From Peptococcaceae bacterium (GTDB lineage Bacteria > Bacillota > Desulfotomaculia > Desulfotomaculales > Desulfocucumaceae): a DNA stretch of 58,852 bases. The DNA lies in contig JAILZP010000020.1 of the NCBI GenBank assembly GCA_023512435.1, positions 1 through 58,852 on the forward strand. The letters are read 5' to 3'. Made by a program: the position numbers and the translations under genes. The notes under the pieces were generated by a model that saw only the letters and a list, made by a program, of their open reading frames with translations, was not told the origin of the DNA and made no database searches. This document shows, in pieces, positions 164 to 18,689 of this stretch (positions within the stretch are counted from its first letter, which is position 1; the number at the start of each line of letters is the position of its first letter).

Positions 164-973
164 GTGGATTTCTGGAAGAGACTTGAAGAACACCGCGCCA
201 TAGAAAAGAGACTGGCTTGGGAAGGAAGTTTCAGCGACTACCTGGAAATTGTCAGGAAATCCCCCCATGTTTGCCAACTGGCCCATTCCCGCATGTATGA
301 AATGATCAGGTCCGCCGGAGTTGAGGAGGTTAACGGACAGAAGCGATACAATTTTTTCTCTTCCGAGATATTTGGCATAGATAGTACCCTGGAAAAGCTG
401 GTGGAGGAGTATTTCCACCCGGCCGCCCGCAGGCTGGACGTGCGCAAGAGAATACTCCTGCTGATGGGTCCGGTGAGCGGGGGCAAGTCTACCCTGGTGG
501 CCATGCTGAAAAAGGGGCTGGAGAAATTCAGCCGCACGGACCCGGGGGCTGTCTATGGAATAAAGGGCTGTCCCATGCACGAGGAACCTCTTCACCTTAT
601 CCCGAAAGAACTGAGGCCCGAGTTTGAAAAGGAGTACGGGGTCTATATCGAAGGGGAGCTCTGTCCGTCGTGCCGGGTGATGGTGGAACAGGAGTACGGC
701 GGAAAAATAGAAAACGTGTTGGTGGAAAGGGTCTTTTTCTCCGAGGAGAACCGGGTCGGAATAGGCACCTTCACCCCGTCGGACCCCAAGTCCCAGGACA
801 TAGCCGATTTGACAGGGAGTGTTGACTTTTCCACCATCGCGGAGTACGGGTCGGAATCGGATCCAAGGGCCTACCGCTTCGACGGTGAGCTGAACATCGC
901 CAACCGGGGGATTATGGAGTTTCAGGAGACGTTTAAATCCAAACCACTGTTCAGGTTAACAGACACCGGGTAA
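164..973 (+). pseudogene. prkA: PrkA serine protein kinase, 5' half (interrupted)
   Basis: N-terminal half of PrkA, the AAA+/serine kinase family linked to sporulation and stationary phase in Bacilli. I see the PrkA N-terminal region, the Walker A motif GPVSGGKST, the segment KGCPMHEEPLHLIPKELR, and the strongly conserved SDPKSQDIADLTGS and GELNIANRGIMEFQE. Start: GTG 164, eight bases after GGAAAGGAG; the in-frame GTG at 155 abuts the Shine-Dalgarno. Homology stops at base 929, after which 14 unrelated codons read into a stop at 971-973. The missing rest of the protein begins in frame at 18690. The break therefore marks the left end of an inserted element, not degeneration. Confidence 0.95.
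919..946 (+). repeat. attL: core repeat plus element arm
   Basis: Bases 919-929 (GTTTCAGGAGA) are the left copy of an 11-bp direct repeat; the right copy is 18679-18689. Element-side bases TTAA (933-936) and AAACCA (941-946) mirror TTAA and TGGTTT at the right end, at identical distances from the core centre (between 924 and 925). The nonpalindromic central dinucleotide would be AG. Confidence 0.88.
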
Positions 974-991
974 GCCCTGGCCCCGGAGAAT

Positions 992-2158
992 TTACACGGT
1001 CCCCTTTTCCTGGGCTGAAGCCGTGTTTTGGCTTTGCTCCTCCCGGCTGTACTCCTCCCTGTAAGTAATCACCCTCCTGGGGTAGGGAATCTCTATGCCT
1101 TCCCGGTCCAGGGCGTTTTTGAACCTTCTCAGCAGTTCCCTCTCCACCGCCCACTGCTCGCCGGGGACGGTCATGGCCACGGCGCGGATCTTCACCGCGA
1201 AGTCCTCCAGGGCCACCACCCCCTGGACCACCGGCACCTCCACGATGGCCGGGATCTCCCGGTGGGCCGCCTCGCACTCCCTTCTCAGCACCTCAATGGC
1301 CCGGTCGATATCCTCCTCGTAGGCGATGCCCACCACGGCCAGGGCCATCATGCGGCCCCGGTTGTAGTTGGTGACCTTGCTGATCTCCCCGTTGGGAATG
1401 ATCTGCAGCTGCCCGGTCCACCTGCGTATCTTGCAGGTCCTGAGGCCGATTTCCTCCACCACGCCCACCACTCCGGCGGCCTCCACGTAGTCTCCCACGG
1501 CGAACTGGTCCTCAAAGATGATGAAAAATCCGCTGATTACATCCCTGACCAGGTTCTGGGCACCGAACCCGACGGCCAGCCCCAGGATGCCGGCGCTGGC
1601 CAGGATGGCGCTGGTGTTCACGTTGAAAATCTGTAAAACCATCAGTCCGGCCAGGAAGAAAATCAGGTAGGTAACCCCGTTCTTCAGAAGCGACTCCAGG
1701 GTTTGGGCCCTCCGGTCCTCAATCAATCCTTTTTGCAGTTCTTTCCGGGCGAAAGTCTGGGTTATGGCTGTGCGGCCGAACCTTGCGGCCAGCCGGGCGG
1801 CCACCACCACGCCGATCACCTTCAGGGCAATCAGGCCCATGTTCTTGAGGTCGGCGGCGGACACCACCTCTACCCGGAAGATCTCCAGGATGACCACCGC
1901 CGCGGTGAATACGGCGCCGTAGAGGAATACCGTCCTCACCAGCATCCCCAGGGAAATCAATAAACTTCCCGCCATGGGCCCTGCTTCCGCGCTTTTTTGA
2001 CGCTCCCTTTCAATGGCCCGGTTCAGGATGGCGTTGACTGTCTTGACCGCCACAAAGGCCGCCGCCAGCACCAGGAGAGACCACAGCAGCCTGACCGCCA
2101 GTTCGTCGAGGCTCGTGGGCAACATTTCTGTTATCTTTTGACTGATTATTTCCGACAC
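992..2158 (-). CDS. MscS-family mechanosensitive channel
   Basis: Membrane channel of the small-conductance mechanosensitive family, which opens under membrane tension to release solutes in hypo-osmotic shock. 388 residues: several hydrophobic segments in the N-terminal half, then the family hallmark AVGFGAQNLVRDVISGF (pore helix and beta-domain entry), a beta domain with FAVGDYVEAAGVVGVVEEIGLRT, and a C-terminal alpha/beta domain. It resembles the compact YkuT type more than the long MscK type. It starts at GTG with a weak ribosome site. It is the first gene inside the left end of the prkA element and reads toward attL. Substrate specificity cannot be told. Confidence 0.88.
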   Translation of the reverse strand: MSEIISQKITEMLPTSLDELAVRLLWSLLVLAAAFVAVKTVNAILNRAIERERQKSAEAGPMAGSLLISLGMLVRTVFLYGAVFTAAVVILEIFRVEVVSAADLKNMGLIALKVIGVVVAARLAARFGRTAITQTFARKELQKGLIEDRRAQTLESLLKNGVTYLIFFLAGLMVLQIFNVNTSAILASAGILGLAVGFGAQNLVRDVISGFFIIFEDQFAVGDYVEAAGVVGVVEEIGLRTCKIRRWTGQLQIIPNGEISKVTNYNRGRMMALAVVGIAYEEDIDRAIEVLRRECEAAHREIPAIVEVPVVQGVVALEDFAVKIRAVAMTVPGEQWAVERELLRRFKNALDREGIEIPYPRRVITYREEYSREEQSQNTASAQEKGTV

Positions 2159-2253
2159 CGTCCCATTTATAAATTAAGCCTCTATTATTATATTAATTCC
2201 GGCAAAAGAAAAAAAGGCGGGTCTGTCCCGCCCGTGTGCTTATTGCAGTTTAT

Positions 2254-3270
2254 TCACATGACTATTTTTTGGGACAGCATCACCTTGTACAAAAGGGCCG
2301 CGGCCTCGGCCCGGGTAAGCTTGCCCTGGGGTCTGAAGGTCCCGTCTTCGTACCCCTTCATCAGGCCTTCGTTGACTGCCGCCGCCACATAGGGCTTAAG
2401 GCTTTCGGAGATGTTATCGCTGTCCGAGAAATTGTCGAGCACCGACAGGTCCGTGGCCGGCTCAAGGTCAAGGGCCTTGATTATGGCTGCCGCCATGTCC
2501 TCGCGGACCGCCGGGAGGTCCGGCCGGAAGAGTACGGTACCGGCTTGGGTTTCAAAACCGGTGAGGTAATCCTTGGCTGCTTCCACGTATTTGTAGCTCC
2601 AGTCCTGGGGACCCACGTCGGCGAAGGTCTGGGCGGTGGGTTCAGGCAGTTGCAGGCCCAGGGCCTTGACCAGCATGGTGGCGAATTGAGCCCTGGTCAC
2701 CAGGGCGCCCGGTTGGAACTTTTTATCGCCCATTCCCATGATTACCCTGTGCCTGGCCATTTCACGGATGGCCTTGGAGGCCCAGTGCCCGGGAGTGATA
2801 TCGGAAAATTCGTCATTCGAATCATAGACGTTTTCGTTGACCGATTCGTCATCATAGACCTCATCGCTGACCGATCTGGCAAGCACCCGCACCGCACTGA
2901 CTTCCATTACACTGCGGTGGGTGAACCTTTCAGCCAAAAGCTTGCCGCGAACCCGGACCCGGCAGTTCAAATTTTCGCTGAGTTTTTCAGCTATCCCCGG
3001 ACCGGCCGGAACCAGGAGGATCAAGTTTTCCCCTTGAACGATCTTGAAGTCGTACCCGTCTACTCCCGCATTTTTAAGCAGGCCGACCTTGGTGGCGACC
3101 TTCCCCCACTTGACGTCCGTCTGTTCATCCGTTACCGTGGTCGCTGCCTGTTCGCTTGTTACCGTGGCTCCCGGCTTTTTGCCCGTTTCCTGGGCCGCAA
3201 AAGCGCCGCCGGTCAGGGCCATTAACAGGACGGCAACCATGATCAGCGACAGCATGAATTTCTTTTTCAT
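2254..3270 (-). CDS. Secreted protein with three SLH domains
   Basis: Surface protein predicted to bind secondary cell-wall polymer through S-layer homology domains. Signal peptide at residues 1-25 ending AFA. The middle (about 50-150) has no recognised fold. SLH domains follow: the first with GHWASKAIREMARHRVIMGM, the second with DWSYKYVEAAKDYLTGF, the third with LKPYVAAAVNEGLMKGYEDG and LTRAEAAALLYK. The gene has a good Shine-Dalgarno (GGAGGTG). It is followed downstream by mscS and preceded by two other exported proteins, suggesting a cell-envelope group. Its ligand and exact role are unknown. Confidence 0.88.
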   Translation of the reverse strand: MKKKFMLSLIMVAVLLMALTGGAFAAQETGKKPGATVTSEQAATTVTDEQTDVKWGKVATKVGLLKNAGVDGYDFKIVQGENLILLVPAGPGIAEKLSENLNCRVRVRGKLLAERFTHRSVMEVSAVRVLARSVSDEVYDDESVNENVYDSNDEFSDITPGHWASKAIREMARHRVIMGMGDKKFQPGALVTRAQFATMLVKALGLQLPEPTAQTFADVGPQDWSYKYVEAAKDYLTGFETQAGTVLFRPDLPAVREDMAAAIIKALDLEPATDLSVLDNFSDSDNISESLKPYVAAAVNEGLMKGYEDGTFRPQGKLTRAEAAALLYKVMLSQKIVM

Positions 3271-3873: not shown

Positions 3874-4209
3874 TTAATACTCCAGTTCCGTGTCATCCAG
3901 GTCATCAAGCCGGTCCAGGGTGTCCATCAATTCGGTCAGCTGCTTGTCTAATTCATCCAGCATGGCGCCGGCTTCCTGGTTTGACACCGGGTTGTCCGTC
4001 TTGATGACAAGTTCGGGGGTGTCGCCGGGCGCGATCTTCGAGGTTGGTTTCGGGTTTTCCTTGGTTCGTTGGTTTTCCGTAGCTTCCACCCCGGGTTTTT
4101 TCTCCCTGTCATTGTCCCCTGCGGCTTTCCGGTCCGAGGAGCCCTTGCCGCAACCGGCCGCCGCCAGCAGGATGACCAGAGATAATGTCACCAGCACCTT
4201 TCTGATCAT
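3874..4209 (-). CDS. Small lipoprotein, unknown function
   Basis: 111 residues starting at ATG 4209 after AGAGGTGAG. A hydrophobic N-terminus ends in the lipobox LAAAGC (modified Cys about residue 20), so the mature protein should be anchored to the outer face of the cytoplasmic membrane. The remainder is polar, Lys/Glu/Pro-rich, and ends with an acidic helix (ELDKQLTELMDTLDRLDDLDDTE). No known family. It lies 13 bp upstream of the exported coiled-coil gene and is likely co-transcribed with it. Confidence 0.7.
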   Translation of the reverse strand: MIRKVLVTLSLVILLAAAGCGKGSSDRKAAGDNDREKKPGVEATENQRTKENPKPTSKIAPGDTPELVIKTDNPVSNQEAGAMLDELDKQLTELMDTLDRLDDLDDTELEY

Positions 4210-4332
4210 TGGACTCACCTCTGACGCTTGCTTGTGGTCTTACATGGCGTTTATCACCCCTTCCTTAAAGGGGATTCTAAACGCCGCTTGTAAACAGAGT
4301 TTATTTGAAATGTAAACAAATTGTAAATTTCG

Positions 4333-5745
4333 CTATCCGGAGGGCAGGGAAAAGGTGATTTCGGTGCCCCGGCCCACTTCGCTGCGCGCCGATATGGCAC
4401 CCCCGTGAAGTTCCACCAGTTCCCTGGCGATGGAAAGCCCCAGCCCGGTGCCGGCCGCCTGCCGGCTCCTGGATTCTTCCACCCGGTGAAACTTTTCGAA
4501 AATCAGTTCAAGCTGGTCTTCGGGGATGCCCGGCCCGTCGTCCTGTACCGTAACCGTGCACTTTCCGTTTTCAGCGCCCGCCCGTACCCGCACCCGGCCG
4601 CCGTCGCCGGTATAGTTGACGGCGTTGTGCAGGAGGTTCAGGATAATCTGCTTGAGCCTGTCCCTGTCGGCTAAGGCCGTGATGCCTTCCCCGGCCGCTT
4701 CGGCGGACAGGGCGATTCGCTTTTGTCGGGCCAGCAGGCTGACTTCCTCGATGATTTCGCCGATCAGTTCCCCGACGTCCACCATTTCCTTATTCAGCTT
4801 CAGGCTGCCCGACTGGATCCTGGCCAGTTGCAGGAGGTCGTCCACCAGCCTGCTCAGCCTGCCGGTTTCTTCATAGGCCCTGCGCAGGTATTTTTCCCGG
4901 TCTGCCGGCCCGATCACCCCCTCCAGGATGCCCTGGATAAAGCCCCGGACGGAGGTCAGGGGGGTGCGCAGTTCGTGGGAAACGTTGGCGATCAGGTTTT
5001 TGCGCATCTCTTCCACCTGCTTCAGCCGGTTTTTCATATAGTTGAAGGTTCCGGCCAGCTGCGCTATTTCATCCTTTCCCGAAGGAACCACATCCTCCGT
5101 GAATTCTCCCTCCGCGATGGCTGCGGCGGATTTCTGAATGTCCTCTATGGGCCTTGAAATGCGGCGGGAGGTGATAAAAACAACCGCCGCCGCCAGTACC
5201 AGTGAAGCCGCGGCGGTGCCCCAGATGATTTTGTATACCTCGAACAGGGCCTTGTTTATTTGGTCCAGCGGCGAGAAAAGCAGGACCACCCCGCATACTG
5301 TGCCGTTGATGTATACGGGCATCCCCACGAAGACCACGTAGGTGTTAAGCTGGCTGGAGAACTGCCTTTTCCGGGTCACTGTCCCGCCTTCCAGGATGGG
5401 CCTGATGTCCTCCGCAATCCCGGTTTCACCCAGGATCTCCTGCACCTGGTCGCCGTGGGATTTCAGTTCGGACAGCTTCTTGGAAACATGCAGCCGTATC
5501 CGGCTGTCCGTCACCTGGCCCAGGGAGTTTAGGGCCAGGGTCAGATCGTCCTGATCGATTTTTTTCTGAACATATTCCTGGACCAGTTCCTCCGCCCGGC
5601 GGCCCGCTGCAAAAAGCTGTTGCTGCTTCTGGTGAAAAAGGTAAAGGTTTAAAAAATAAGTTATCAGCGCGGCCAGCAGTGTGATCGCCAGGAGGATGAT
5701 CACGGCGTAAGTGAATAACAGCCTCTGAAAAATGCTCCTGAACAT
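4333..5745 (-). CDS. Membrane sensor histidine kinase
   Basis: Two-component sensor. 470 residues from ATG 5745, which follows GAGGTAAA and overlaps the stop of the response regulator by one base (TGATG). Order: TM1 (about 10-35), extracytoplasmic sensor region (about 36-165) of the PhoR/ResE-like sort, TM2 (about 170-195), HAMP (RRISRPIEDIQKSAAAIAEG), HisKA with the phospho-accepting His in NVSHELRTPLTSVRGF, and HATPase_c with NLLHNAVNYT, DDGPGIP and GTGLGLSIARELVELHGG. All catalytic boxes are intact. The signal is unknown; the neighbouring envelope proteins suggest an envelope or ion stimulus. Confidence 0.93.
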   Translation of the reverse strand: MFRSIFQRLLFTYAVIILLAITLLAALITYFLNLYLFHQKQQQLFAAGRRAEELVQEYVQKKIDQDDLTLALNSLGQVTDSRIRLHVSKKLSELKSHGDQVQEILGETGIAEDIRPILEGGTVTRKRQFSSQLNTYVVFVGMPVYINGTVCGVVLLFSPLDQINKALFEVYKIIWGTAAASLVLAAAVVFITSRRISRPIEDIQKSAAAIAEGEFTEDVVPSGKDEIAQLAGTFNYMKNRLKQVEEMRKNLIANVSHELRTPLTSVRGFIQGILEGVIGPADREKYLRRAYEETGRLSRLVDDLLQLARIQSGSLKLNKEMVDVGELIGEIIEEVSLLARQKRIALSAEAAGEGITALADRDRLKQIILNLLHNAVNYTGDGGRVRVRAGAENGKCTVTVQDDGPGIPEDQLELIFEKFHRVEESRSRQAAGTGLGLSIARELVELHGGAISARSEVGRGTEITFSLPSG

Positions 5746-6434
5746 CACTTTACCTCGAATTTGTAGCCCACGCCGTGAACCGTCCTGATTTCCCATCCGG
5801 CGCCGGGTTGAAGCTTTTCCCGTATTTTTTTTACGTGCATGTCCACGGTGCGGGTTTCCCCGACATAGTCATATCCCCAGACTTTTTCCAGGATTTGCTC
5901 CCTGGTCAGGACCATGTTTTTATTCAGCATTAAATAGTGAAGCAGTTGAATCTCTTTGGGCGTAAGGGTCACCGGCCTCCCGCGGCAAACAACCTCGTAC
6001 TTTTTTTTATCCAGGGATAGATCGCCGGCGACCAGCACATCCCTGCCGGCGGCGTCTCCCCCGGAGTCTTTTTTCCTGAGGCGGGCCCTGACCCGGGCGG
6101 CCACTTCCCGGGGGTCGAAGGGCTTGATCACGTAGTCGTCCGCCCCCATGTCCAGCCCCGATATCTTCTCCTCGCTGGTGTCCCGGGCGGTCAGCATGAT
6201 TATGGGCACGTTGCTTTGCTGCCTGATCATCCGGCAGACCTCCCAGCCGTTGATGACGGGCAGCATGATATCCAGAATGACCAGGTCCGGGCTCTCCCGT
6301 TTGAAGGCATCCAGGCCCTGGCTGCCGTCGTGGGCGAAAACCAGGCTGTGGCCGTCTTGAGCCAGGTACAGCTGCAGCAGGTCGCATATGTTCCTGTCGT
6401 CATCAATCACCAGTATTTTATGGTTACCGCACAT
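5745..6434 (-). CDS. OmpR/PhoB-family response regulator
   Basis: DNA-binding partner of the adjacent kinase. Receiver domain: acidic pair DDD near residues 13-15, phospho-acceptor Asp in LVILDIMLP, Thr in MLTARDT and Lys in VIKPFDPREV. C-terminal winged helix with VTLTPKEIQLLHYLMLNKN and REQILEKVWGYDYVGETRTVDMHVKKIR. The ATG at 6434 follows AAAGGTG at good spacing; a GTG nine bases upstream is the alternative. The kinase gene follows with overlapping stop and start codons, so the two are one operon. Confidence 0.94.
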   Translation of the reverse strand: MCGNHKILVIDDDRNICDLLQLYLAQDGHSLVFAHDGSQGLDAFKRESPDLVILDIMLPVINGWEVCRMIRQQSNVPIIMLTARDTSEEKISGLDMGADDYVIKPFDPREVAARVRARLRKKDSGGDAAGRDVLVAGDLSLDKKKYEVVCRGRPVTLTPKEIQLLHYLMLNKNMVLTREQILEKVWGYDYVGETRTVDMHVKKIREKLQPGAGWEIRTVHGVGYKFEVK

Positions 6435-6513
6435 TTTCTGCACCTTTTGTCAAAATTATCATTAATTAGTATTCTACCGGCAATGCATGGTTCCTTCTCC
6501 GGCAAGAGCATAA

Positions 6514-7666
6514 TTGCCCGCCTGCGGCACCGTTTCTGTGTGGTTCCCATTATCCGTGCCGATGGAGGGGATAAACCGGATTCAGCTGCTTTCCGGGAGG
6601 ATGTTTGAGAAGCACCCCCAGGGCGGGGGAGTGGAAGTACTGGTGGACAAAAGCTATTTTAAGGCCAACCGGCTGTCCTTCAACGACACTGTAGATATGG
6701 TGGCCGAAGGCAGAAAGGTTTCCCTCACCGTGACGGGCACCGGGACCGGGCCGGAGTTCATCTACGCCATGAAGGACGCGTCCACCCTGTTGCCCGACCC
6801 GGAGACCTTCGGCTTGATTATGATGCCTTTAAACCAGGCCCAGCAGGTCTTAAACCTGCCCGGTCAGATAAACCAGGTGGTAATTAAACTTTCACCCGGG
6901 GCCGATGAGGAAAAAACGGCCGAACAGGTCAGGGCGCTGCTGGATCCTTACGGCAACCTTTCCAGTTACCCGCTCAAAAAGCAGCTCAGCCATGCCGTGC
7001 TGCAGGGAGAGCTGGACGGCCTCAGGGCTGTCTCCACCTTTATGCCGGTTATATTCCTGGGCATTGCCGCCGCTATCCAGATGGTCATGCTGGGCAGGAT
7101 GATCGCCGGGCAGCGCCTGCAGATCGGCATCATGAAGGCCCTGGGCTACAACAGCAGGCAAATAATGACTTACTATACCGCCTATTCCCTGTCCTCATCC
7201 CTGCTGGGCGCGCTGTTGGGCACTATTATGGGAATAGGGCTGTCTTCGGCCATTTCAGGGATGTATGCCGATTTCTTCAACCTGCCCCGGGCTATAGGGG
7301 GGGTAAACACCGCCGCAGTGATTAACGGCCTTTTATTAAGCCTTTCGGTGGGAGCCGCGGCCGGGATTGCGGCCTCCAGGAAAGTGGTGTCGTTCAACCC
7401 CGCCGAATCCATGCGCCCGGCACTCGGTGGAAACCCTGAGCCGCCGCAATGTTCTTCTGGCGCCCCTGGAATCGGTGATCACCGGGGCTGGCGGCCAGAA
7501 GGAAGTCATGGCGGTGGTGAATAACCGCGTTGTCCGCCGCACTGTGATCACCGGCATCAGCGACGGGGAAAACGTCGAGATAACCGGGGGTCTGGAGGAA
7601 GGTGACATAATCGTCAGGGACGGCGGCCTGGGCCTGCCCGACAGGACAAGAGTGAGGCCGCAATAA
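6514..7666 (+). pseudogene. Remnant of ABC permease fused to efflux adaptor end
   Basis: Two pieces of a MacAB-like efflux operon. From about 6560 to 7425, one frame encodes the periplasmic part and last three membrane segments of an FtsX-like ABC permease (QIGIMKALGYNSRQI, then VVSFNPAESMRP); the N-terminal membrane segment is missing and no start with a ribosome site is seen. At about 7425 homology jumps to the next frame, which encodes the C-terminal barrel of an HlyD/MacA-type membrane-fusion protein (RTVITGISDGENVEITGGLEEGDIIV), ending at 7666. An internal deletion joining the two genes explains the chimera. It is the main plus-strand coding relic in this half of the element. Confidence 0.8.
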
Positions 7667-9023: not shown

Positions 9024-9038
9024 TGAAATCCTCCTCAT

Positions 9039-9054
9039 ATCAATTTTTTTTGAT
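9039..9054 (-). promoter_or_regulatory. ArsR-type operator before arsM
   Basis: ATCAATTTTTTTTGAT, an ATCAA-N6-TTGAT dyad, lies 16 bp upstream of the arsM start. An almost identical 16-mer sits upstream of arsR, so both units are probably repressed by ArsR in the absence of arsenite. Confidence 0.75.
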
Positions 9055-9113
9055 TTATCAGGGCTAAAAAAATGTTTTCGGTTGGCTGGACGGGATCCGG
9101 ATCATCCTGGCCG

Positions 9114-9440
9114 CTAATCCCAATCCCTGGTTAAAGCAAAGTCATTTTTAAGCTGTTCGATGTACTGCCTCAGCGTCTTGGTGTTGATGAAATAGACCTT
9201 CCACCTGCCCCGGGGCTCCTCGGTCACCAGCCCGGCTTCGGTCAGTTCTTTCATGTGGTAGGAAACCCGGGACTGGATCATGCCCAGCACGGCCATCAGC
9301 TCGCAGTTGCACAATCCGGGCCGGCGGCCGCCTTCGCCGGGCAGGGGGCAGCACCCTTCACCGCTCCGGGCGAGCATCTGCATGATCTTGTAGCGGATGG
9401 GGTCGCCTAAAGCCCTGGCGATTTTAACATTATCAACCAT
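9114..9440 (-). CDS. arsR: ArsR-family metalloregulator
   Basis: Winged-helix repressor, 108 residues. DNA-reading helix region MIQSRVSYHMKELTEAGLV, wing GRWKVYFIN. Cys residues that could bind As(III) are in the dimerisation/alpha3 area: GEGCCPLPG and LCNCELMAVLG, the second resembling the ELCVCDL metal site of the family. It is transcribed in the same direction as arsM, 90 bp upstream, and both have the same operator motif, giving autoregulated arsenic control. Confidence 0.9.
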   Translation of the reverse strand: MVDNVKIARALGDPIRYKIMQMLARSGEGCCPLPGEGGRRPGLCNCELMAVLGMIQSRVSYHMKELTEAGLVTEEPRGRWKVYFINTKTLRQYIEQLKNDFALTRDWD

Positions 9441-10929: not shown

Positions 10930-11692
10930 CGGCCGGTTCCCTCCCGTAAGAAATCTTGGAACTGTATTCCCTCATGGCGTCCAGGACGGTTCTGTCCCCC
11001 TCCAGGATCCGGAGGGACAGCCACCTGCTGTTGACGCCGGGCGGGATCAGTGCCTTCAGGCTGTGTTCCAGGCAGGAGACGGCCTCTTCTATTTCGGGAT
11101 CGTAGACAAGCCGGCGGGGGTTGGTGGTCAATTTCCCAAAAGCCACCTGGTGTATTCTCTCTTTCAGTTCCGCTATGCCCAGTCCGCTGCGGGCCGCCGT
11201 GGCCACCACCGGAACGCCCAGCTGGGCCGACAGCTCTTCCAGGTCGATGGATATTTTTTTCCGGCGGGCCTCATCAATGAGGTTGACGCAAACCACCACC
11301 CTGGAGGTGATCTCCATGACCTGCAGAACCAGGTTTAAATTGCGCTCCAGGCAGGTGGCGTCCGCCACCGCCACCGTGGCGTCCGGTTGGGCAAAACAGA
11401 GAAAATCCCTGGCGGCCTGCTCGTCAGCCGAGCTGGCCAGCAGGGAGTAGGTTCCCGGCAAGTCCACCAGGATGTACGAACTGCCCCCGTATGAAAAGGT
11501 TCCCCGGGTCTGGATCACGGTTTTGCCGGGCCAGTTGCCGGTGTGCTGGCGCAGGCCGGTCAGGGCGTTAAAGATTGTGCTTTTCCCGGTATTGGGATTC
11601 CCCGCCAGGGCCACCACCTTCTGGCCGGATGATTTTTTTGTGATGTTGAATTTTTTTCGGATCCCCTCGGTCGGCAGGCGGTCGCTCAACAT
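10892..11692 (-). CDS. feoB: FeoB GTPase domain (split FeoB, N-terminal part)
   Basis: Cytosolic G-protein domain of the ferrous iron transporter. 266 residues. G1 GNPNTGKST, G3 DLPGTYSL, G4 NLIDEA (NxxD) and the G5 region TAARSGLG are present, followed by the GDI-like helical region. In most bacteria this is continuous with the membrane part; here the reading frame stops at 10892 and the membrane part starts in another frame. Both halves look intact, so this is a stable split rather than an obvious mutation. Preceded by feoA. Confidence 0.92.
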   Translation of the reverse strand: MLSDRLPTEGIRKKFNITKKSSGQKVVALAGNPNTGKSTIFNALTGLRQHTGNWPGKTVIQTRGTFSYGGSSYILVDLPGTYSLLASSADEQAARDFLCFAQPDATVAVADATCLERNLNLVLQVMEITSRVVVCVNLIDEARRKKISIDLEELSAQLGVPVVATAARSGLGIAELKERIHQVAFGKLTTNPRRLVYDPEIEEAVSCLEHSLKALIPPGVNSRWLSLRILEGDRTVLDAMREYSSKISYGREPAVETGHCPAGSRA

Positions 11693-11711
11693 GATTTCTC
11701 CTCTTCTTTGT

Positions 11712-11945
11712 TCAATGTAAGGAAACCGTTATTTTGTCCGCGTCCTCTTTTCTCAGGGCGATAATGGCTCCCCTGATGCTGAAGGCCGTGGGATCCCCGG
11801 CCGGGCTGCGGCGGACAGCCTCCACGGCGGTGCCGGGCACGAGGCCCAGGTCCAGCAGGCGGCGCCGGGCCATGCCTTCGGCGGACAGGGAGGTAACCAC
11901 TCCCCGCTTCTTCAGGGGAAGCTTTGAAAGCGGCATTTCCTGCAT
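11712..11945 (-). CDS. feoA: FeoA family protein
   Basis: Small SH3-like partner of FeoB, 77 residues from ATG 11945 (after GGAGGGGACGGA). Signature GMARRRLLDLGLVPGTAVEAVRRSPAGDP with the C-terminal SIRGAIIALRKEDA strand. It lies 19 bp upstream of the FeoB GTPase gene in the same direction, forming feoA-feoB(N)-feoB(C). A tandem TTAG-N6-CTAA motif upstream suggests control by an iron-dependent repressor. Confidence 0.9.
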   Translation of the reverse strand: MQEMPLSKLPLKKRGVVTSLSAEGMARRRLLDLGLVPGTAVEAVRRSPAGDPTAFSIRGAIIALRKEDADKITVSLH

Positions 11946-11982
11946 TCCGTCCCCTCCCCCGCTGATTAACACGCACCCGGAG

Positions 11983-12113: not shown

Positions 12114-12404
12114 TTACCCGCCCACCAGGAGCGGGGTGGTAAAAATTACCACATCCCCGGATTTGAGGACCTGGTCAAACTGCGCGGTGTCCACCCTCCT
12201 GCCGTTGACCATCACCCAGGCGGTCACCGGCAAATTACCCGTTTTGTCAATAAGCTTTTGGCGGAAATTTTCCCCGTGCTTGCCGGCCAGCATGTTTATC
12301 ACACCCCAAAGGGTGCAGCCGCCGTCCATTTCCAGTTCTTCCTCCCGGCAAAAACCCGCGGCGACACAAAACACCGAGTAGTATTTCACGGTGATCCTGA
12401 TCAT
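12114..12404 (-). CDS. MoaD/ThiS-like sulfur carrier protein
   Basis: 96 residues with a beta-grasp pattern and C-terminal Gly-Gly (TTPLLVGG), the thiocarboxylate site used for sulfur transfer in molybdopterin or tungstopterin synthesis. Conserved tail region VMVNGRRVDTAQFDQVLKSG and VVIFTTP. Its start overlaps the AOR stop by 4 bp. MoaD-like genes are commonly linked to AOR-family genes, consistent with supply of dithiolene sulfur to the cofactor; a specialised carrier rather than the housekeeping MoaD is likely. Confidence 0.82.
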   Translation of the reverse strand: MIRITVKYYSVFCVAAGFCREEELEMDGGCTLWGVINMLAGKHGENFRQKLIDKTGNLPVTAWVMVNGRRVDTAQFDQVLKSGDVVIFTTPLLVGG

Positions 12405-14296
12405 TTCGTTTCTTCCGCCGCCTCCAGCCCCAGTTCTCTTAATTTAGCCTCTGAGGGGATCCCGGTTTCCGGGTCCCATCCCCGGAGGAGGTAGTATTCT
12501 TCCAGAATGCGGACGAATTTCTCCCTCCGGATGCCGTGCCCCCTGGCCGGGCCGGTGGTGATCGGATCGTTTAAAAGGCGCGGGGGCGGCATGTCGTCCT
12601 CCCGTCTGATTCCCTCCCTTACTCCAAACATGCGCTCCAGGTTCCATATCCTTTCACCGATCCGCTCCAGATCTTCGACACTGATATCCCAGCCGGTGGC
12701 CGAAGCCAACAGCATGCGGAAATGGGCGGGCAGCAAGGGCTTTAACGCTATGCCTTCCAGTTTGCAGATACCCAGGGAGTCCACCACGCAGTGCCAGTTT
12801 TCATGCCAGTACATCAACCGGGCCTTGGTTTCGTACCTCAGCCAGTAATCGGGGGTGGTTTCTATGCCGATCTGCTCCCTGATGTCCCGGGCATATATGT
12901 CCGGTGCCACTTCGTACATCGGCAGTCCCTTCAGGTGGTCGCCGCCCCGGGGTGACACCGCGAAAGAGAGGGCCATGCCCTTGGTGCCCCTCACGTCCAC
13001 CGCCGGGTAATCCATACCCTTGCTCTGTACAACCAGGTCCGACCCTCCCAGCTTCCGGGACGCCTTGGGGGCTCCCTCGGCCAGAACATCACCGGCCCCC
13101 TCCCGGAAGGCGATCTTGCGGACCAGTTCTATCATCGCCCGGTGGTCCCCCCAGTGCAGCCGGACGCCGTCCAGGATCGCGGGGGTGAGGATTTGCTTTT
13201 CGGAACACTCCATGGCCCAGGCGATGGTGTTGCCGGTGGAAATGGTATCCAGGCCGAGCTGGTTGCAGATCATGTTGGCGTGAAGCACGGCTTCCAGGTT
13301 GTCGTTGCCGCACTTGGACCCAAAGGCTGCGGTGGATTCGTATTCCGGGCCCTCCCCCATGGTTCCGGCATAGGGACCGTGATCCACCCTGCAGTACCGG
13401 CTGCAGCTGACGGGGCAATTGTAGCAGCCCTTGTGACCGGTGACGTATTTTTCCAGCATCACTTCTCCCCGGAGCTTTTCGGCCCCTTCGAAGGTTGACT
13501 GCTGGAAGTTCCTGGTGGGCAGGAAGCCCAGCATCTGGGCAAGGCCGGTTATGGCGGTGGTTCCGAAGGTGCTGGCCACTTCGTACAGCGGGTCTTTCTT
13601 TATTGCTTCGACGGCGGTTTCAACGGCCTCCCTGAATTCCGCCGGCCGGGCCACCTCCACTCCGCGGTTCCCCCGGACGGCCACCGCCTTGAGATTCTTT
13701 GAGCCCATCACCGCTCCGGGGCCGCAGCGGGCGGCGGCCCTGGCAAGGTTGCAGATTATGGCGGCATACCGCACCAGATTTTCTCCGGCCGGGCCGATGC
13801 AGGCCACCTGGATAGTGTTGTCCGCCGTTTCCTGCTTGATGGCGGCGTCGGTTTCCCAGGTGTTTTTGCCCCAGATGTGTCGCGCGTCCCGGATTTCCGC
13901 CCGGTCGTCGTCTATCCACAGGTATACGGGGTGTTCCGCCCTGCCGGTGATAACGATGTGGTCATACCCGGCCATTTTCAGCTCGGGCCCCCAGTGCCCT
14001 CCGCAGTTGGAATCGCCGAATATGCCCGTCAAGGGGGACTTGAAGGTGACGGTAAAGCGCCCCGAACAGGGAGCCATGGTGCCGCCCAGGGGTCCCACCC
14101 CGAATATGAGAGGGGCGGCCGGATCCAGGGGGTTCATCCCCCGGCCGGCCAGGTCGTACAGGATCCGGGCGTTGATCCCGGCCTGCCCGAGAAAGCCGTA
14201 GGCCAGATTTTCCGGAAGATCCCTTTTTATTATTGTTTTGCTGGAAAGATCGACCTCCAGTATTTTGCCGGCCCAGCCGAACCACCTCTTACTCAC
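12401..14296 (-). CDS. aor: Aldehyde:ferredoxin oxidoreductase (AOR family)
   Basis: Tungsten or molybdenum bis-pterin enzyme oxidising aldehydes to acids with ferredoxin. 631 residues, the usual length. N-terminal AOR domain: GWAGKILEVDLSS, the pterin-binding FGVGPLGGTMAPCSGRF and GDSNCGGHWGPELK, and KAVAVRG. [4Fe-4S] ligands: CYNCPVSC plus a later Cys in SLGICKLEG. Middle and C-terminal alpha-helical domains are complete. Substrate cannot be assigned; residues near the active site are not diagnostic to me. It is the middle gene of a three-gene operon (FeS protein, AOR, MoaD-like) preceded by a cobalamin riboswitch and terminator. Confidence 0.93.
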   Translation of the reverse strand: MSKRWFGWAGKILEVDLSSKTIIKRDLPENLAYGFLGQAGINARILYDLAGRGMNPLDPAAPLIFGVGPLGGTMAPCSGRFTVTFKSPLTGIFGDSNCGGHWGPELKMAGYDHIVITGRAEHPVYLWIDDDRAEIRDARHIWGKNTWETDAAIKQETADNTIQVACIGPAGENLVRYAAIICNLARAAARCGPGAVMGSKNLKAVAVRGNRGVEVARPAEFREAVETAVEAIKKDPLYEVASTFGTTAITGLAQMLGFLPTRNFQQSTFEGAEKLRGEVMLEKYVTGHKGCYNCPVSCSRYCRVDHGPYAGTMGEGPEYESTAAFGSKCGNDNLEAVLHANMICNQLGLDTISTGNTIAWAMECSEKQILTPAILDGVRLHWGDHRAMIELVRKIAFREGAGDVLAEGAPKASRKLGGSDLVVQSKGMDYPAVDVRGTKGMALSFAVSPRGGDHLKGLPMYEVAPDIYARDIREQIGIETTPDYWLRYETKARLMYWHENWHCVVDSLGICKLEGIALKPLLPAHFRMLLASATGWDISVEDLERIGERIWNLERMFGVREGIRREDDMPPPRLLNDPITTGPARGHGIRREKFVRILEEYYLLRGWDPETGIPSEAKLRELGLEAAEETK

Positions 14297-14582
14297 TTTC
14301 GGACACCTCCCGGGCCATTTTTATTCCGCCGAAAAGGCAGCTGGTCACGCACAGGGGTTCATCATCCATTTTTTTGCCGGGATCAGCCTTGCCGCAAAAC
14401 CGGTCCAGGCACGTCTGGTTAAAAACCGGGTAAACCTTTCCCTCTTCCTCAAGTTTCCAGATTCTGATCCCAGCCAGCCGCGGGTTGACCGTTCCGTACT
14501 CTGTCCAGGAGCAGGCCACCTCGCACCTCCGGCATCCCCGGCAGTTTTCCGGGTGCACTTCAATCCTCGGCTTTCCGTACAT
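14289..14582 (-). CDS. Ferredoxin-like [4Fe-4S] protein partner of AOR
   Basis: 97 residues from ATG 14582 (after GGAGGGAAGC). Cys pattern CRGCRRCEVACSW (C-x2-C-x2-C-x3-C) near residues 14-24, with further Cys in TCLDRFCG and LCVTSC, fitting two or more clusters of the kind found in DmsB/HycB-like or AOR-associated electron-transfer subunits. It overlaps the AOR start by 8 bp, so it most likely takes electrons from AOR. One Cys per second cluster is not obvious, so the number of clusters is uncertain. Confidence 0.82.
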   Translation of the reverse strand: MYGKPRIEVHPENCRGCRRCEVACSWTEYGTVNPRLAGIRIWKLEEEGKVYPVFNQTCLDRFCGKADPGKKMDDEPLCVTSCLFGGIKMAREVSESE

Positions 14583-14631
14583 TTGCTTCCCTCCTCGAAT
14601 CTTACGCGTTTCCCGGTCAGCGCGGCCCCGC

Positions 14632-14670
14632 AAAAAAGAAAGTCCCAACCCTCTGCAAGGGCGGGACTTT
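14632..14670 (-). terminator. Riboswitch expression-platform terminator
   Basis: On the minus strand an AAAGTCCC / GGGACTTT stem is followed by CTTTTTT, between the B12 aptamer and the first gene of the AOR operon. This fits transcription termination when cobalamin is bound. Confidence 0.85.
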
Positions 14671-14720
14671 ACCATCATCCCTGCCGCGATCTCCCCCCGG
14701 CGGGGAGACGACCAGCAGTC

Positions 14721-14885
14721 TCCAGGCAGGTCTCCTGGCTCCCGGATCATCGCAGAACCGCGCCTTCCCCCGCCATGCGGAGTGGCTTTTGTGCGGGTCT
14801 CCTTCCCGGTTACAGTGGCGGGACCGCTCAGGTTTTCCACCTGATTCCCTATTCTCCCCGCCCTGGGCGGGGCACCTGGAAACAT
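14721..14885 (-). ncRNA. Cobalamin (B12) riboswitch
   Basis: The minus strand carries the conserved B12-aptamer blocks in order: AGGTGCC, GGGAATCAGGTGGAAAACC, GCGGTCCCGCCACTGTAA, and the B12 box AGCCAGGAGACCTGCCTGG (14721-14740). A terminator follows at 14632-14670, then the ferredoxin/AOR/MoaD operon. Between 14583 and 14952 there is no gene other than this leader. Control of an AOR operon by B12 is unusual. Confidence 0.95.
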
Positions 14886-14952: not shown

Positions 14953-15588
14953 TTAGTGATTTAGTTCCAGCAGCACCACCTGCGGATTGGTGGGCAGGTC
15001 GCCGGCGGTAACCTGCAGTTCCCGTTCCACCCGGTGCCCCGGGTAGTTCTTCAGGAATTCATCTGCCGGGCTGATGGGGAAGTCTATGTACCCGGTCTTG
15101 TAGTGCATGGGCAGTATGTAGCGCGGTTTAATCTGGTCCGCCACCTTCACCGCTTCGCCGGGGCCGATGGTGTAGAATCCCCCCACCGGGACCATAAGGA
15201 CGTCCACCTTGCCGATCTGGTCCAACTGACCCTTCTCCAGGACATGTCCCAGGTCTCCCAGGTGGCAGATCCGCAGCCCTTCGGCCTCGATGACAAAAAT
15301 CATGTTTCTGCCCCTTTTGCTTCCCCCGCTGTTGTCGTGGAAGGAAGGAATTCCGGTAAAGACAATTTCCCCGCAGGAATGCCGTCCTTCTTTCCGGACC
15401 GCCTCCGGATTGCCGGGGACGGTTTTCACCGCGTTGTGGTCAAAATGATCGTGGCTGACGGTAACGTAGTCGGCGGGAAGGTTTGGTTGCGGGTACCCGA
15501 TGCTCTGGTCGAAGGGGTCTGTGATAACGGTCCGGCCGCTTGACAGGGTGACGGCAAAGCAGGCGTGTCCCAGCCACTTTATCTTCAT
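14953..15588 (-). CDS. UPF0173-type metallo-beta-lactamase-fold hydrolase
   Basis: 211 residues from ATG 15588. Metal ligands: WLGHACF near the start, HDHFDHN (HxHxDH-like, here SHDHFDH), and the later His of ILPMHYKTG, with GDLGH as the bridging Asp motif. This is the compact UlaG-like hydrolase family for which the substrate is unknown. It is transcribed toward the riboswitch; the AOR operon has its own promoter. No firm functional link to AOR. Confidence 0.85.
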   Translation of the reverse strand: MKIKWLGHACFAVTLSSGRTVITDPFDQSIGYPQPNLPADYVTVSHDHFDHNAVKTVPGNPEAVRKEGRHSCGEIVFTGIPSFHDNSGGSKRGRNMIFVIEAEGLRICHLGDLGHVLEKGQLDQIGKVDVLMVPVGGFYTIGPGEAVKVADQIKPRYILPMHYKTGYIDFPISPADEFLKNYPGHRVERELQVTAGDLPTNPQVVLLELNH

Positions 15589-15615
15589 CACTATTCCCCC
15601 TTGAACGTTTTTGGC

Positions 15616-15647: not shown

Positions 15648-15797
15648 GTTATTTATATCCCGGACAGGCCGAAAATCCTGCAATAGGGTGTGTTTTTTTT
15701 TAAATCAAATCAATAACAAGATTTACCTGCTCAGTGAAAGGGCTGATCACTTGCCAACTCACCCTGCATGTGGTAAAACAGGTTATAAGTTTCGGAG

Positions 15798-16778
15798 GTG
15801 AAGAATCTGGACAACCTGCCTGTTAAAACCATACCCCTGCCGACGCCTTTTCCCGTTGGCGATATCAACGCCTACCTGTTCACGGCCGACCCGGTGACCA
15901 TCATAGACCCCGGGCTGTATTACCCGCCCGCGGTGGAAGCCTTGGAACGGGCCCTGGGAGAATGCGGCCTTAAGGTGTCCGACATAAAAAGAATAGTGAT
16001 TACGCACGGGCACCCCGACCATTACGGATTGGCCGGGAAAATTCAGGAGGACGCCGGGGCCGAGGTGCTGGTCAGGGAGGAGGAAGTGGGCAAAATCAAG
16101 CCCGACCGTGAATTTGTCGGCCGCATGGTCCAGTCCCTGAAAACTACCGGCATGCCTGAAGACATAATCAGTCTTAACTGGATCGTGGACTTCGGCGCCA
16201 ATATTCCTTACACCCATCCCATTGAAAGGATAAAAACCTATTCCGGGGAGTTTGTCCTGGAGTTTTCGGGATTCAACCTGAAACTGATGCACATGCCGGG
16301 CCACAGCGGGGGGCACACCTGCCTTTACTGGGAGGAAGAGAACATTCTGCTTTCGGGCGACCTTCTTTTACCCGACATAACCGCCGTACCTTCGGTTGAG
16401 TTTGATCCCGGAAGGGATAACCTGCGCAGCCGGAGCCTTTCCCAAATCATGGGAAGCCTGGAACGGGTCCGCAGCCTTAAACCCGGCCTGTGCCTTCCCG
16501 GCCACGGGGAACCCATACCCGAACCGGGGGAACTGGCCAAATCCAGGATAGATTTTCACATGGGCAGGCTGGAGGAAATATACAAACTTGTTCCCCGGGG
16601 CGAGGAGAACGGGATTACCCCCTACCGGGTGTCCAGGCTGTATTATCCCGAGGTGCGGGGTTTCGACAAGTTTCTGGCCGTGATGGAGGTGGTTTCACAC
16701 CTGGACCGGCTGGCCGACGACGGAAGGATAGCGGAAAGGATAGATGAAAGGGGTGTGTCCCATTTTTACCGTCCTTGA
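15798..16778 (+). CDS. Metallo-beta-lactamase-fold hydrolase
   Basis: 326 residues. Catalytic motif THGHPDHYG (HxHxDH), downstream ligands in MPGHSGGHTCLY, bridging Asp in LLSGDLLLPD and the last His in LPGHGEPI, followed by a C-terminal winged-helix-like region typical of LACTB2/RBL-type MBL proteins. Substrate unknown; relatives act on thioesters, RNA or glutathione adducts. The first possible start, GTG 15798, sits inside the Shine-Dalgarno GGAGGTG, with no other standard start nearby, so the true start is uncertain. Terminated at 16839-16862. Confidence 0.85.
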   Translation: MKNLDNLPVKTIPLPTPFPVGDINAYLFTADPVTIIDPGLYYPPAVEALERALGECGLKVSDIKRIVITHGHPDHYGLAGKIQEDAGAEVLVREEEVGKIKPDREFVGRMVQSLKTTGMPEDIISLNWIVDFGANIPYTHPIERIKTYSGEFVLEFSGFNLKLMHMPGHSGGHTCLYWEEENILLSGDLLLPDITAVPSVEFDPGRDNLRSRSLSQIMGSLERVRSLKPGLCLPGHGEPIPEPGELAKSRIDFHMGRLEEIYKLVPRGEENGITPYRVSRLYYPEVRGFDKFLAVMEVVSHLDRLADDGRIAERIDERGVSHFYRP

Positions 16779-16838
16779 GCCGGAGGGACCGGAGAATAGG
16801 GACTGACCGCTCTTTTTTCGGGAATACAAAGGATCGAT

Positions 16839-16862
16839 CCGCCAAGGGGCGGTTATTTTTTC
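16839..16862 (+). terminator. Terminator after MBL hydrolase
   Basis: CCGCC AAGG GGCGG stem followed by TTATTTTTT on the plus strand; it overlaps the stop of the small minus-strand gene. Confidence 0.75.
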
Positions 16863-17038
16863 GGTTCTGAACCGCCCGGGGATATATTTCCCTCGCCGGA
16901 TAAATAATCATTTAAAAGGAAAGAACGGCCTGCGGGGTTATCCCCGGCGCGGTCCAGGAGTTTTATTACCAGCAGCAGGGCCCTGATCACGTAATCCTCG
17001 TCCTCCGGCCGGCTGCTGTAGTGCTTTTCGATGATCAT
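16853..17038 (-). CDS. Small protein divergent from the recombinase, unknown
   Basis: 61 residues from an ATG preceded by GGAAGGTG. The composition is protein-like: a polar N-terminus (MIIEKHYSSRPEDEDYVIRA), an aliphatic helix (LLLVIKLLDRAG) and a flexible Lys/Pro-rich tail. It matches no family I know. It is transcribed divergently from the serine recombinase gene with 72 bp between the starts, a position where recombination directionality factors or recombinase regulators are sometimes found. It is the only unknown gene adjacent to the recombinase, hence a candidate excision factor; this is inference from position alone. Confidence 0.55.
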   Translation of the reverse strand: MIIEKHYSSRPEDEDYVIRALLLVIKLLDRAGDNPAGRSFLLNDYLSGEGNISPGGSEPKK

Positions 17039-17110
17039 CCCAACACCTTCCGGTTTGCCGGGTTCGTCTATACTGGAATATATGCTGCGGCGAGAAAGGG
17101 GTTTCTTTAT

Positions 17111-18676
17111 TTGCGGGTGGCATTTTATGGCAGGGTCAGTACCGAGGAGCAGGCCGACCGGGGAAATATCACCGGCCAGGTTGAGTTTGCCCGAAAGTAT
17201 TTTGAACTGCACGGCCGGGCTGAGAATATCGACGGCTACGAAATGTACCTGGACGAAGGGGTTTCCGGGGCCATTCCGCTGGAGGAACGCCCGGAAGGGG
17301 CGAGGCTGCTGGCCGACGCCAGGGCCGGCAAAATATCCGCGGTTTATTTCTACCGCCTGGACAGGCTGGCCAGGTCCACCCAGGTGGTCCTGAGCACGTA
17401 CAATGAGCTGGAAAAGCTGAATATCAGCATTAAGTCCATGACCGAGGCCTTTGACACCGGCACCCCGGTGGGAAAATTCTTCATGACCCTGCTGGCCAGC
17501 ATAGCGGCCCTGGAACGGGACACCATCCTGGAGCGGACCCAGATGGGGAAGGAAAGGAAGGCCAGGGAAGGATGCTGGACCTCGGGTCCCCCGCCCTTCG
17601 GCTACCGCATCGGGGCCGACAAGAGGCTGGTTGTCCATAACCCGGAGGCCGAAACGGTCAGGCTTATCTTCCGGCTGTACAACGAGGGCATGAGCATGGT
17701 GCCCCTGGCCGGATACCTAAACGCCAGAGGGGTTCCGACCCCGACGGCCTCGAAAAAAAACAAAAAGGCCGGCGCCGGGCTGTGGCATGCCGGACATATC
17801 AGCCTAATCCTCCGGAACACGGTGTATATGGGTGAGTACCGCACCATGAGGAGGTCGAAAAAAAAGAAAAGTCCGGATATGATCAGGGTCCCGGCCATCG
17901 TGTCCGCCCACGAGTTCAACCGGGCCGGAAGGCTGCTGGCCGAAAACGGCCAGGCCGTCCGGGGGTTCCGGGGCAGGCGGTACCTGCTGCGGGGAATCAT
18001 ATACTGCGGTCATTGCGGCCTGGCCATGATAGGCAACAGCGGGGGCGGCGGAAGGTTTTACTACCGCTGTGCCGGCACGGTCAACCGGGGCCGGGGCAGG
18101 TCCTGCGGAAACAAGCAGGTCCGCGCGGCGTACATCGAACAGGCGGTCTGGAGCGACATCAGGGATTTCATCTGCAGCCCGGGACGGGTGGTGGAAAAAA
18201 TAAGGGTTTTGCTGGAACGGGACCATGGGGACATGGAACCGGTGGAACGGGAACTTGACCTTGTGGACCGGGCCCTGGAGGAAAAAAAGTCGGCCAGGGC
18301 CAGGATACTGTCCATGGTCTCCAGGCTGCTGATCACCGACCGGGAGGCTGAAAACGAGCTGAACAGGCTGGCCGCTGAAGTCAGTTCCCTTTCCCGCCGG
18401 CGGGACACCCTTCTGTCCCGCCGCATAGAAATCCAGGCGGCGCGAAACCACGCCGCGGATAGCGCCCTCCTCCTGGAGAAACTGTCCCGCCGGATTGACC
18501 AACTTCCGCCCAGCATGGAGGTGGTCAGGCTGCTGGTGGAAAGGGTGGTGGTGAAAACAGAAGCACGGGAGGGCAAAAGGGTTTCCCGGGCCGAGGTCCA
18601 TTACCGGTTCCGGCCCGGGGTGCAGACGGGTCCCGGCCGGGCGGATTCCGTCCCGCCAGGATTGGTTTCGAGTTAA
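17111..18676 (+). CDS. Large serine recombinase of the prkA element
   Basis: Site-specific recombinase expected to integrate and excise the element. 521 residues from TTG 17111 (after GAAAGGGG), which puts the nucleophile at Ser10 in VAFYGRVSTEEQ, as in resolvases. N-terminal catalytic domain with the Arg motif YRLDRLARS and LLASIAALERD; recombinase (DNA-binding) domain with NPEAETVRLIFRLYNEG; zinc ribbon CGHCGLAMI ... YYRCAG ... SCGNK; then a long coiled coil and a C-terminal DNA-binding tail. The gene runs to the right end of the element, its stop lying in the attR arm. Domain order and location match SpoIVCA-like enzymes of spore-gene-interrupting elements. Confidence 0.95.
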   Translation: MRVAFYGRVSTEEQADRGNITGQVEFARKYFELHGRAENIDGYEMYLDEGVSGAIPLEERPEGARLLADARAGKISAVYFYRLDRLARSTQVVLSTYNELEKLNISIKSMTEAFDTGTPVGKFFMTLLASIAALERDTILERTQMGKERKAREGCWTSGPPPFGYRIGADKRLVVHNPEAETVRLIFRLYNEGMSMVPLAGYLNARGVPTPTASKKNKKAGAGLWHAGHISLILRNTVYMGEYRTMRRSKKKKSPDMIRVPAIVSAHEFNRAGRLLAENGQAVRGFRGRRYLLRGIIYCGHCGLAMIGNSGGGGRFYYRCAGTVNRGRGRSCGNKQVRAAYIEQAVWSDIRDFICSPGRVVEKIRVLLERDHGDMEPVERELDLVDRALEEKKSARARILSMVSRLLITDREAENELNRLAAEVSSLSRRRDTLLSRRIEIQAARNHAADSALLLEKLSRRIDQLPPSMEVVRLLVERVVVKTEAREGKRVSRAEVHYRFRPGVQTGPGRADSVPPGLVSS

Positions 18677-18689
18677 GCGTTTCAGGAGA
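18663..18689 (+). repeat. attR: element arm plus core repeat
   Basis: TGGTTT (18663-18668), TTAA (18673-18676) and the 11-bp core GTTTCAGGAGA (18679-18689). Together with attL the arms make a dyad TGGTTT-N4-TTAA-N16-TTAA-N4-AAACCA in the circularised element, centred on AG at 18684-18685. Confidence 0.88.

Follow-up and report, generated by a model that had tools for sequence, protein, structure and literature searches.

In the genome of a Peptococcaceae bacterium from the order Desulfotomaculales (GenBank assembly GCA_023512435.1), the gene prkA is interrupted after codon 255 by a 17,760-bp element that carries a large serine recombinase. We propose that this element is excised in the mother cell during sporulation, which would rebuild prkA. 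The proposal draws on analogy with known intervening elements, and we give it a probability of about two in three. The window (the whole stretch of DNA that was analyzed) is 58,852 nucleotides from contig JAILZP010000020.1. An initial annotation, made from these nucleotides alone, had described a serine-recombinase element that divides prkA, with the same repeat at both ends and a recombinase gene at its right end. All of this was borne out: the 11-bp repeat is exact (919-929 and 18679-18689), and the stop codon of the recombinase gene ends 2 bp before the right copy. The features of the split gene and of the ends of the element are as follows.

164-928, forward strand: 5' part of prkA, 255 codons, encoding the AAA+ domain up to the cut (Pfam PF08298, E = 4.5e-85; matches the start of a relative's intact PrkA)
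919-929, forward strand: left 11-bp core, GTTTCAGGAGA, the core of the left attachment site (attL; exact repeat)
930-945, forward strand: left arm of the phage attachment site (attP), CGTTTAAATCCAAACC, the inverted counterpart of the right arm (by eye; similar arms in relatives)
16856-17038, reverse strand: small divergent open reading frame (ORF) of about 61 amino acids that contains the motif I-x(3)-YS; a candidate for the directionality factor or for a regulator
17111-18676, forward strand: large serine recombinase, 521 amino acids, TTG start (Pfam; phrog_95 integrase, E = 7e-105)
18664-18678, forward strand: right attP arm, GGTTTCGAGTTAAGC (by eye; similar arms in relatives)
18679-18689, forward strand: right 11-bp core, the core of the right attachment site (attR; exact repeat)
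18689-19396, forward strand: 3' part of prkA, reference codons 257-492 (PF08298/PF06798)
19396-19397, forward strand: point of a 113-bp frame-shifting deletion in prkA (sequence comparison and arithmetic)
19398-19706, forward strand: 3' end of prkA, codons 531-632 plus the stop codon, in another frame (comparison with an intact PrkA)

The N half of PrkA begins with a GTG codon at 164 and is homologous to other PrkA proteins through 928; it then continues for 14 codons into the element and stops at 971-973. The prkA sequence picks up again at 18689, past the right end of the element. The cut lies within the AAA+ domain: of the 358 positions of Pfam's AAA_PrkA, the N half matches 2-245 and the C half matches 242-356, so neither half contains a whole ATPase domain. 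These two halves are the only matches above the cut-off to the PrkA ATPase domain in this genome. If one mismatch is allowed, GTTTCAGGAGA matches the window 3 times, versus 0.76 expected, and 3 matches were reached in 6 of 100 shuffled sequences. The 11-bp repeat is therefore weak by itself, and the evidential weight rests on the restored frame: when the flanks were joined by a script, the joint GELNIANRGIMEFQEMLKCDEKFLWNLL was in frame and read ...GIMEFQEMLKCDEKFLWNLL... We rejected a chance repeat as the explanation of the boundaries because of this in-frame joint, not because of the repeat. The initial annotation had also stated that joining the two copies restores the sequence at the joint in frame. 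This is correct, but it overlooked the deletion downstream: codons 257-492 are intact (18689-19396), 113 nucleotides are gone (a length that we obtained by arithmetic from the matched coordinates), and codons 531-632 follow in another frame (19398-19703).

The same codon of prkA, which we call site A, is cut in other members of the order. We surveyed 113 genomes, labeled in the style of G000 (the window's genome), and found a match to prkA in 106 of them. Thirteen of the 106, from four families, are cut at site A: G000, G001, G002, G003, G005, G006, and G007 from the window's family (f1); G032 and G065 from f16; G031, G064, and G072 from f14; and G081 from f17. Of these 13 genomes, 11 show the left junction, 9 show the right junction, and 7 show both. 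All seven of the f1 genomes that contain prkA are cut at site A; the family's eighth genome, G004 (1.6 Mb), lacks both prkA and spoIVA. Close relatives with uncut prkA do exist in other families (G040 and G048 beside G072 and G031; G041, G073, and G080 beside G032). Recombinases from the same clade as the window's (see below) lie directly at the C half of prkA in 6 of the 13 genomes (G000, G003, G006, G032, G065, where it is partial, and G081); in G072, the recombinase lies at the N half. The closest recombinases from related genomes are 52-77% identical to the window's. Not every piece could be located in the draft genomes; we did not find the middle of prkA in G002 and G032, the C half in G001 and G072, the end in G065, and the N half in G031. 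Partial, broken, or doubled matches to prkA in G010, G015, G045, G053, G058, G068, G088, G089, G100, and G105 (probably due to contig ends, frameshifts, or fragments) were not counted as splits by an element.

Given that the window's genome is a draft (3.18 Mb in 80 contigs, 88% complete) and that the repeat is only 11 bp, we considered whether the arrangement might be an assembly chimera. This would not account for the same codon and the same types of arms in 13 genomes, with both junctions in 7 of them, or for the in-frame joint. The recurrence at one codon in 13 genomes in essence refutes a chimera, and we regard it as vanishingly improbable.

Two genomes have unusual remnants. G040 contains an intact prkA and, elsewhere (L089:2872-3078), a fragment of prkA (codons 252-320) behind a right arm like those of site A; the fragment is perhaps the relic of an old junction. 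In G064, contigs C88 and C135 carry two different 3' ends of prkA, both truncated at codon 564, where the contigs end.

The split halves are under strong purifying selection, which may be slightly relaxed. We compared nonsynonymous and synonymous substitution rates (dN and dS); for the many pairs that approach saturation (dS > 1), the low dN is the only trustworthy figure. Among pairs with usable dS, dN/dS for the N halves of split copies was 0.04-0.10; for uncut relatives, it was 0.04-0.05. The window's own N half gave 0.053 when compared to G001, and 240 codons of its C half gave 0.033 when compared to G007. G002 and G005 are both cut at site A and at another site, D (described below), and have similar site-D recombinases. 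Between them, the N half has 39 synonymous and 15 other changes (dN/dS of 0.092), and the last 168 codons have 33 synonymous and 4 other changes (0.024); the pieces at site D in G002, G005, and G006 gave 0.02. Also, the halves of prkA in G003 and G007 are clean, with 255 and 379 codons. If prkA is constrained while it is split, then it must be rejoined, either at the DNA level or, less likely, at another level.

Alternatively, a degenerate or once-mobile element could have inactivated prkA permanently, leaving a pseudogene and a recombinase that has ceased to act on it. The deletion in the C half, which breaks the frame, would fit, as would the element's feoB gene, which lies in two overlapping frames (10892-10929) and so implies a second indel in the element or the assembly. 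The failure to find the C half in G001 and the slight elevation of dN/dS over uncut copies point the same way. However, besides low dN/dS and the clean halves of G003 and G007, there is no stop codon in either half of the window's prkA outside the deletion, and the stop codons that were flagged in pieces from G005 and G006 lie where the match overruns into the element. The recombinase is intact and retains its catalytic residues. Overall, we think that permanent inactivation is unlikely. The deletion itself may be true decay or an assembly fault, so the split prkA of this particular genome could be dead or mis-assembled.

Returning to excision in the mother cell, several observations weigh against it. 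First, because of the deletion, the joined frame stops at 559 amino acids: simulated excision from the present assembly did not by itself give a full-length PrkA. Second, the initial annotation had proposed a check for empty sites in related genomes, and although uncut prkA is present in congeners from other families, none of the 7 prkA-bearing genomes in the window's family has an empty site A. Third, the recombinase is not always where it would be expected. It lies 1.9 kb from the C half in G007 and about 16 kb from the C half in G005, whose element is about 118 kb; no match to the clade's recombinases was found in G002, G031, or G064 (3 of the 13 split genomes); and in G001, the sole congener that we compared, the contig with the recombinase runs for another 700 bases without reaching prkA. 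Fourth, when we examined 13 regions upstream of recombinases by eye, we could not name a sigma-E or sigma-K promoter in any of them; a TATAAT-like box is kept upstream of the viral recombinases and is degenerate in the family's elements. Fifth, dN/dS for the C halves was 0.02-0.09 (0.023-0.090) in pairs that include a split copy, versus 0.006-0.013 in uncut pairs, so constraint may be relaxed. Finally, we did not find the circular joint of the window's element in viral contigs, and three of the eight viral contigs described below (L124, L126, and L127) have no visible prkA-like site.

Recombinases that are related to the window's are also found on viral contigs. The window's protein contains the Resolvase, Recombinase, and Zn_ribbon domains (Pfam), which place it among the large serine recombinases, and across 11 aligned sequences, Ser10, Arg8, and the motif YRLDRLAR are invariant. 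Two scans identified eight viral contigs that encode recombinases with 44-54% identity to it. In four of the eight (L210, L212, L213, and L214), an uncut attP-like site with the prkA core comes right after the recombinase gene; L213 is nearly identical to L212. Another sequence, L123/L211, is from a 46-kb viral contig and ends in the C half of prkA. The arms of attP are inverted and are centered on the AG of TTTC-AG-GAGATG; as counted by hand, they span 42 bp in the window, 46 bp in G081, and 50 bp in L210. The center in L214 is AA instead, and its core CTCAAGAAATG fits CAAGAAATG, which is how the uncut prkA of G073 spells the same codons. A scan for a generic attP pattern gave three contigs. 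One of them, L275, duplicates L214; the other two, L276 and L277, had neither arms nor a match to the recombinase and were taken to be chance hits.

In a tree of 22 recombinases, the resident and viral recombinases described above form one clade (support of 100/100), so phages and resident elements belong to one lineage. Within the clade, one group consists of G000, G001, G005, and G007, and another, with L210 as its sister, consists of G003 and G006. This argues against a single origin for the split in f1, as G003 and G006 group with L210 instead of with the other four. Judging from these sequences, the family was likely entered or re-entered, by insertion or by replacement, at least two times. 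Of the 13 clade recombinases that we examined, 11 have a small divergent ORF with the I-x(3)-YS motif upstream, including two from viral contigs. The window's copy (16856-17038), which we view as the best candidate for the directionality factor, matched no family in Pfam or PHROGs.

Of 50,697 records of deposited phages, 16 match PrkA; each of these matches covers 80% or more of the protein at below 60% identity, so none of them is a piece of prkA. Among the best 15 of 1,330 matching records, the top-ranked recombinase shares 38% identity with the window's across 78% of the query.

Could these elements simply be temperate phages or islands whose attachment site is in prkA, that respond to damage and not to development, and that rejoin prkA only incidentally? 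The viral contigs with an uncut attP-like site, the 46-kb viral contig in prkA, and other viral contigs at a different codon of prkA (see below) are all consistent with this. But the halves are constrained across genomes with a common split, which requires regular rejoining when prkA is used, and no phage structural, packaging, or lysis gene was recognized in the window's element (19 ORFs were compared to Pfam and 10 of these to PHROGs). Among those 10, the matches to PHROGs were the integrase, plus weak or domain-level matches for the SLH protein (to tail and endolysin families), the methyltransferase-GNAT fusion, and the metallo-beta-lactamase-fold proteins. We therefore doubt that development plays no part. 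The two readings do overlap, as SP-beta is described as a working phage that is also developmentally excised (PMC4191935).

The comparison to skin, which the initial annotation had made, holds for the anatomy, which is that of known intervening elements of sporulation genes; the deletion in the C half argues against a working switch in this genome. Like skin in the sigK gene of Bacillus and Clostridioides, the window's element is a serine-recombinase element in a mother-cell sporulation gene, its core repeat is in frame, and excision would rebuild the gene. Unlike skin, it targets prkA and carries metabolic cargo, and its excision is our proposal. In the window's genome, a serine recombinase is found beside sigK, and it belongs to another clade than the prkA recombinase: on contig C14, the N half of sigK adjoins a serine recombinase (L119:5520-5906 and 3918-5495), as in skin. 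The C half of sigK was not found in G000, and contig C42 encodes an intact paralogue that resembles SigK. Three other genomes from the family, G003, G005, and G006, have split sigK, with the halves 3.3, 8.2, and 3.1 kb apart.

Intervening elements are known from other sporulation genes as well, and Abe et al. in 2013 (Mol Microbiol) reportedly described two of them, vfbin and vrin. The phage SP-beta is reported to attach within spsM of B. subtilis by a large serine recombinase and to be excised in the mother cell (PMC4191935). The viral contigs with prkA sites are its anatomical counterpart, whereas the window's element lacks phage structural genes, and the gene and the host group are different. 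The element gin, in gerE of B. cereus ATCC10987, is described as not prophage-like (PMC5595907), which is how the window's element appears. However, gin is in another gene, and its sporulation-specific rearrangement is reported in that source, while we infer it for the window's element. The elements vfbin (in spoVFB), vrin (spoVR), and yin (yabG) are described as one per gene (PMC4191935, PMC10747680), in contrast to prkA, which has at least five recombinase/site systems. We first suspected that yabG was split in G000, but the gene is whole. We found no report of prkA as the target of an intervening element: no title listed by our literature searches concerns a split prkA, the one paper that matched all terms of a search (PMC12700454) mentions each of them once, and the main texts of PMC5595907, PMC4191935, and PMC10747680 do not name prkA, although Abe et al. 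might mention it.

The role of prkA in sporulation is carried over by analogy from two other bacteria. In B. subtilis, sigma-E is reported to direct the transcription of prkA, and when the gene is lost, sigK expression falls and sporulation is defective (PMC4415436); a prkA null mutant of B. anthracis is described as sporulation-defective (PMC13001217). As for the Desulfotomaculales, the sporulation marker spoIVA is present in 19 of the 22 genomes in which we looked for it and is intact in G000. It was not found in G006 (84% complete) or G081 (72% complete), which both have split prkA, or in G004. Both split and uncut copies of prkA have a GCATATAAT-type motif upstream (95-105 in the window), which may resemble the -10 box of sigma-E promoters.

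Under the proposed mechanism, the recombinase would synapse the two cores and would cut at the central AG dinucleotide, as predicted from the symmetry of the arms. Excision would release a circle and leave a single core within an uninterrupted prkA. The element could be inherited without cost, since the spore would keep the uncut chromosome and only the mother cell, which dies, would lose the element. Most likely, the element descends from temperate phages that used the same codon of prkA as their attachment site, and we infer such an ancestry for the window's copy.

Site A is not the only place where prkA is cut. Site B (reference codon 141-143 or so) is cut in G032 and G043; site C (about codon 287-290) in G006, G062, G065, and G077; and site D (about codon 467-469) in G002, G005, and G006. 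We did not count G009 at site B, as both of its contigs end at the site, or a possible cut at site C in G064. At each of the B, C, and D junctions that we examined, a serine recombinase lies no more than about 0.7 kb away, except in G062, where the contig begins at the junction. The sets from sites A, B, C, and D each form one clade in a tree of 17 recombinases (3 changes for the four groups, versus a mean of 7.0 when shuffled); because the tree has long branches, we make no claims about how the sets are related to each other. A fifth site, at codon 505, is on viral contigs L278-L280, which encode codons 1-505 or 1-510 of PrkA, up to AYCN (SYCN in L278), and then a serine recombinase. By eye, these PrkA sequences resemble those of Bacilli. 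The 113-bp deletion in the window spans this fifth site, which may be a coincidence.

Several genomes (G002, G005, G006, G032, and G065) have two or three elements in prkA at once. In G005, the gene is in three pieces on one contig, all in one orientation, around stretches of about 118 and 18 kb. In G006, four pieces are spread over three contigs, and there is also a stray N-terminal fragment. This fragment (codons 34-134) is on contig C130 (L075:4228-6286), and remnants of a related recombinase lie between it and the main N half. In such genomes, two or three excisions would be needed for one mRNA. As judged from these alignments and trees, at least five recombinase/site systems use prkA, at different codons. 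We are cautiously inclined to go further and to view prkA as a gene with many docks for DNA splicing in the mother cell, into which at least five systems insert, both in Desulfotomaculum-like bacteria and in hosts whose PrkA resembles that of Bacilli. The interruption would be permanent in one family, and some species would have to excise two or three elements in one cell to make a single PrkA.

If this is correct, then prkA joins the short list of sporulation genes that are rebuilt by programmed DNA excision, and the list reaches into Desulfotomaculum-like bacteria. With several elements in one gene, the splicing of a bacterial gene at the DNA level would become a multi-step process. At one codon, the forms range from viral contigs whose attP-like site is uncut to a resident element with cargo, and they would provide a series of stages from phage to developmental switch. 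Also, the five pairs of sites and recombinases are fresh serine integrases with predicted bacterial attachment sites (attB) and attP.

The remaining genes of the window's element are its cargo.

992-2158, reverse strand: MscS-type mechanosensitive channel (Pfam; homologues on the recombinase contig of G001 and the N-half contig of G007)
2254-3270, reverse strand: SLH-domain protein (Pfam SLH)
4333-6443, reverse strand: sensor histidine kinase (4333-5796) and response regulator (5745-6443) (Pfam)
6514-7524, forward strand: FtsX-like permease (Pfam FtsX)
7758-9440, reverse strand: methyltransferase-GNAT fusion (ArsM-like by eye) and ArsR-family regulator (Pfam; homologues of both near the G005 recombinase)
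9547-11972, reverse strand: FeoB in two overlapping frames and FeoA (Pfam)
12114-14885, reverse strand: small protein (MoaD/ThiS-like by eye, no Pfam match), aldehyde ferredoxin oxidoreductase, and ferredoxin-like protein (Pfam)
14953-15591, reverse strand: first metallo-beta-lactamase-fold protein, a hydrolase (Pfam; beside the recombinase, a 55-amino-acid remnant in G001 and a whole homologue in G005)
15798-16778, forward strand: second metallo-beta-lactamase-fold protein (Pfam; 75% identical copy beside the G001 recombinase)

We compared this cargo to the prkA and recombinase loci of related genomes. G001 shares the channel, the second metallo-beta-lactamase-fold gene, and a remnant of the first; G005 shares the first of these two genes, the ArsR regulator, and the methyltransferase, all near its recombinase; and G007 shares the channel, on its N-half contig. 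In the loci that we compared from G002, G003, and G006, none of 18 cargo genes and small ORFs from the window were present. The partly common cargo suggests that the elements of G000, G001, G005, and G007 descend from one old element, and the split of prkA is likely older than the divergence of these four genomes. We propose a single ancestral element for these four only.

Another gene in the window's genome is split as well. On contig C12 (L122:3782-10840), the murA gene of the cell-division cluster is divided near residue 110-117 by about 5.6 kb of DNA that includes a serine recombinase and the hydrogenase maturation genes hydE, hydF, and hydG.

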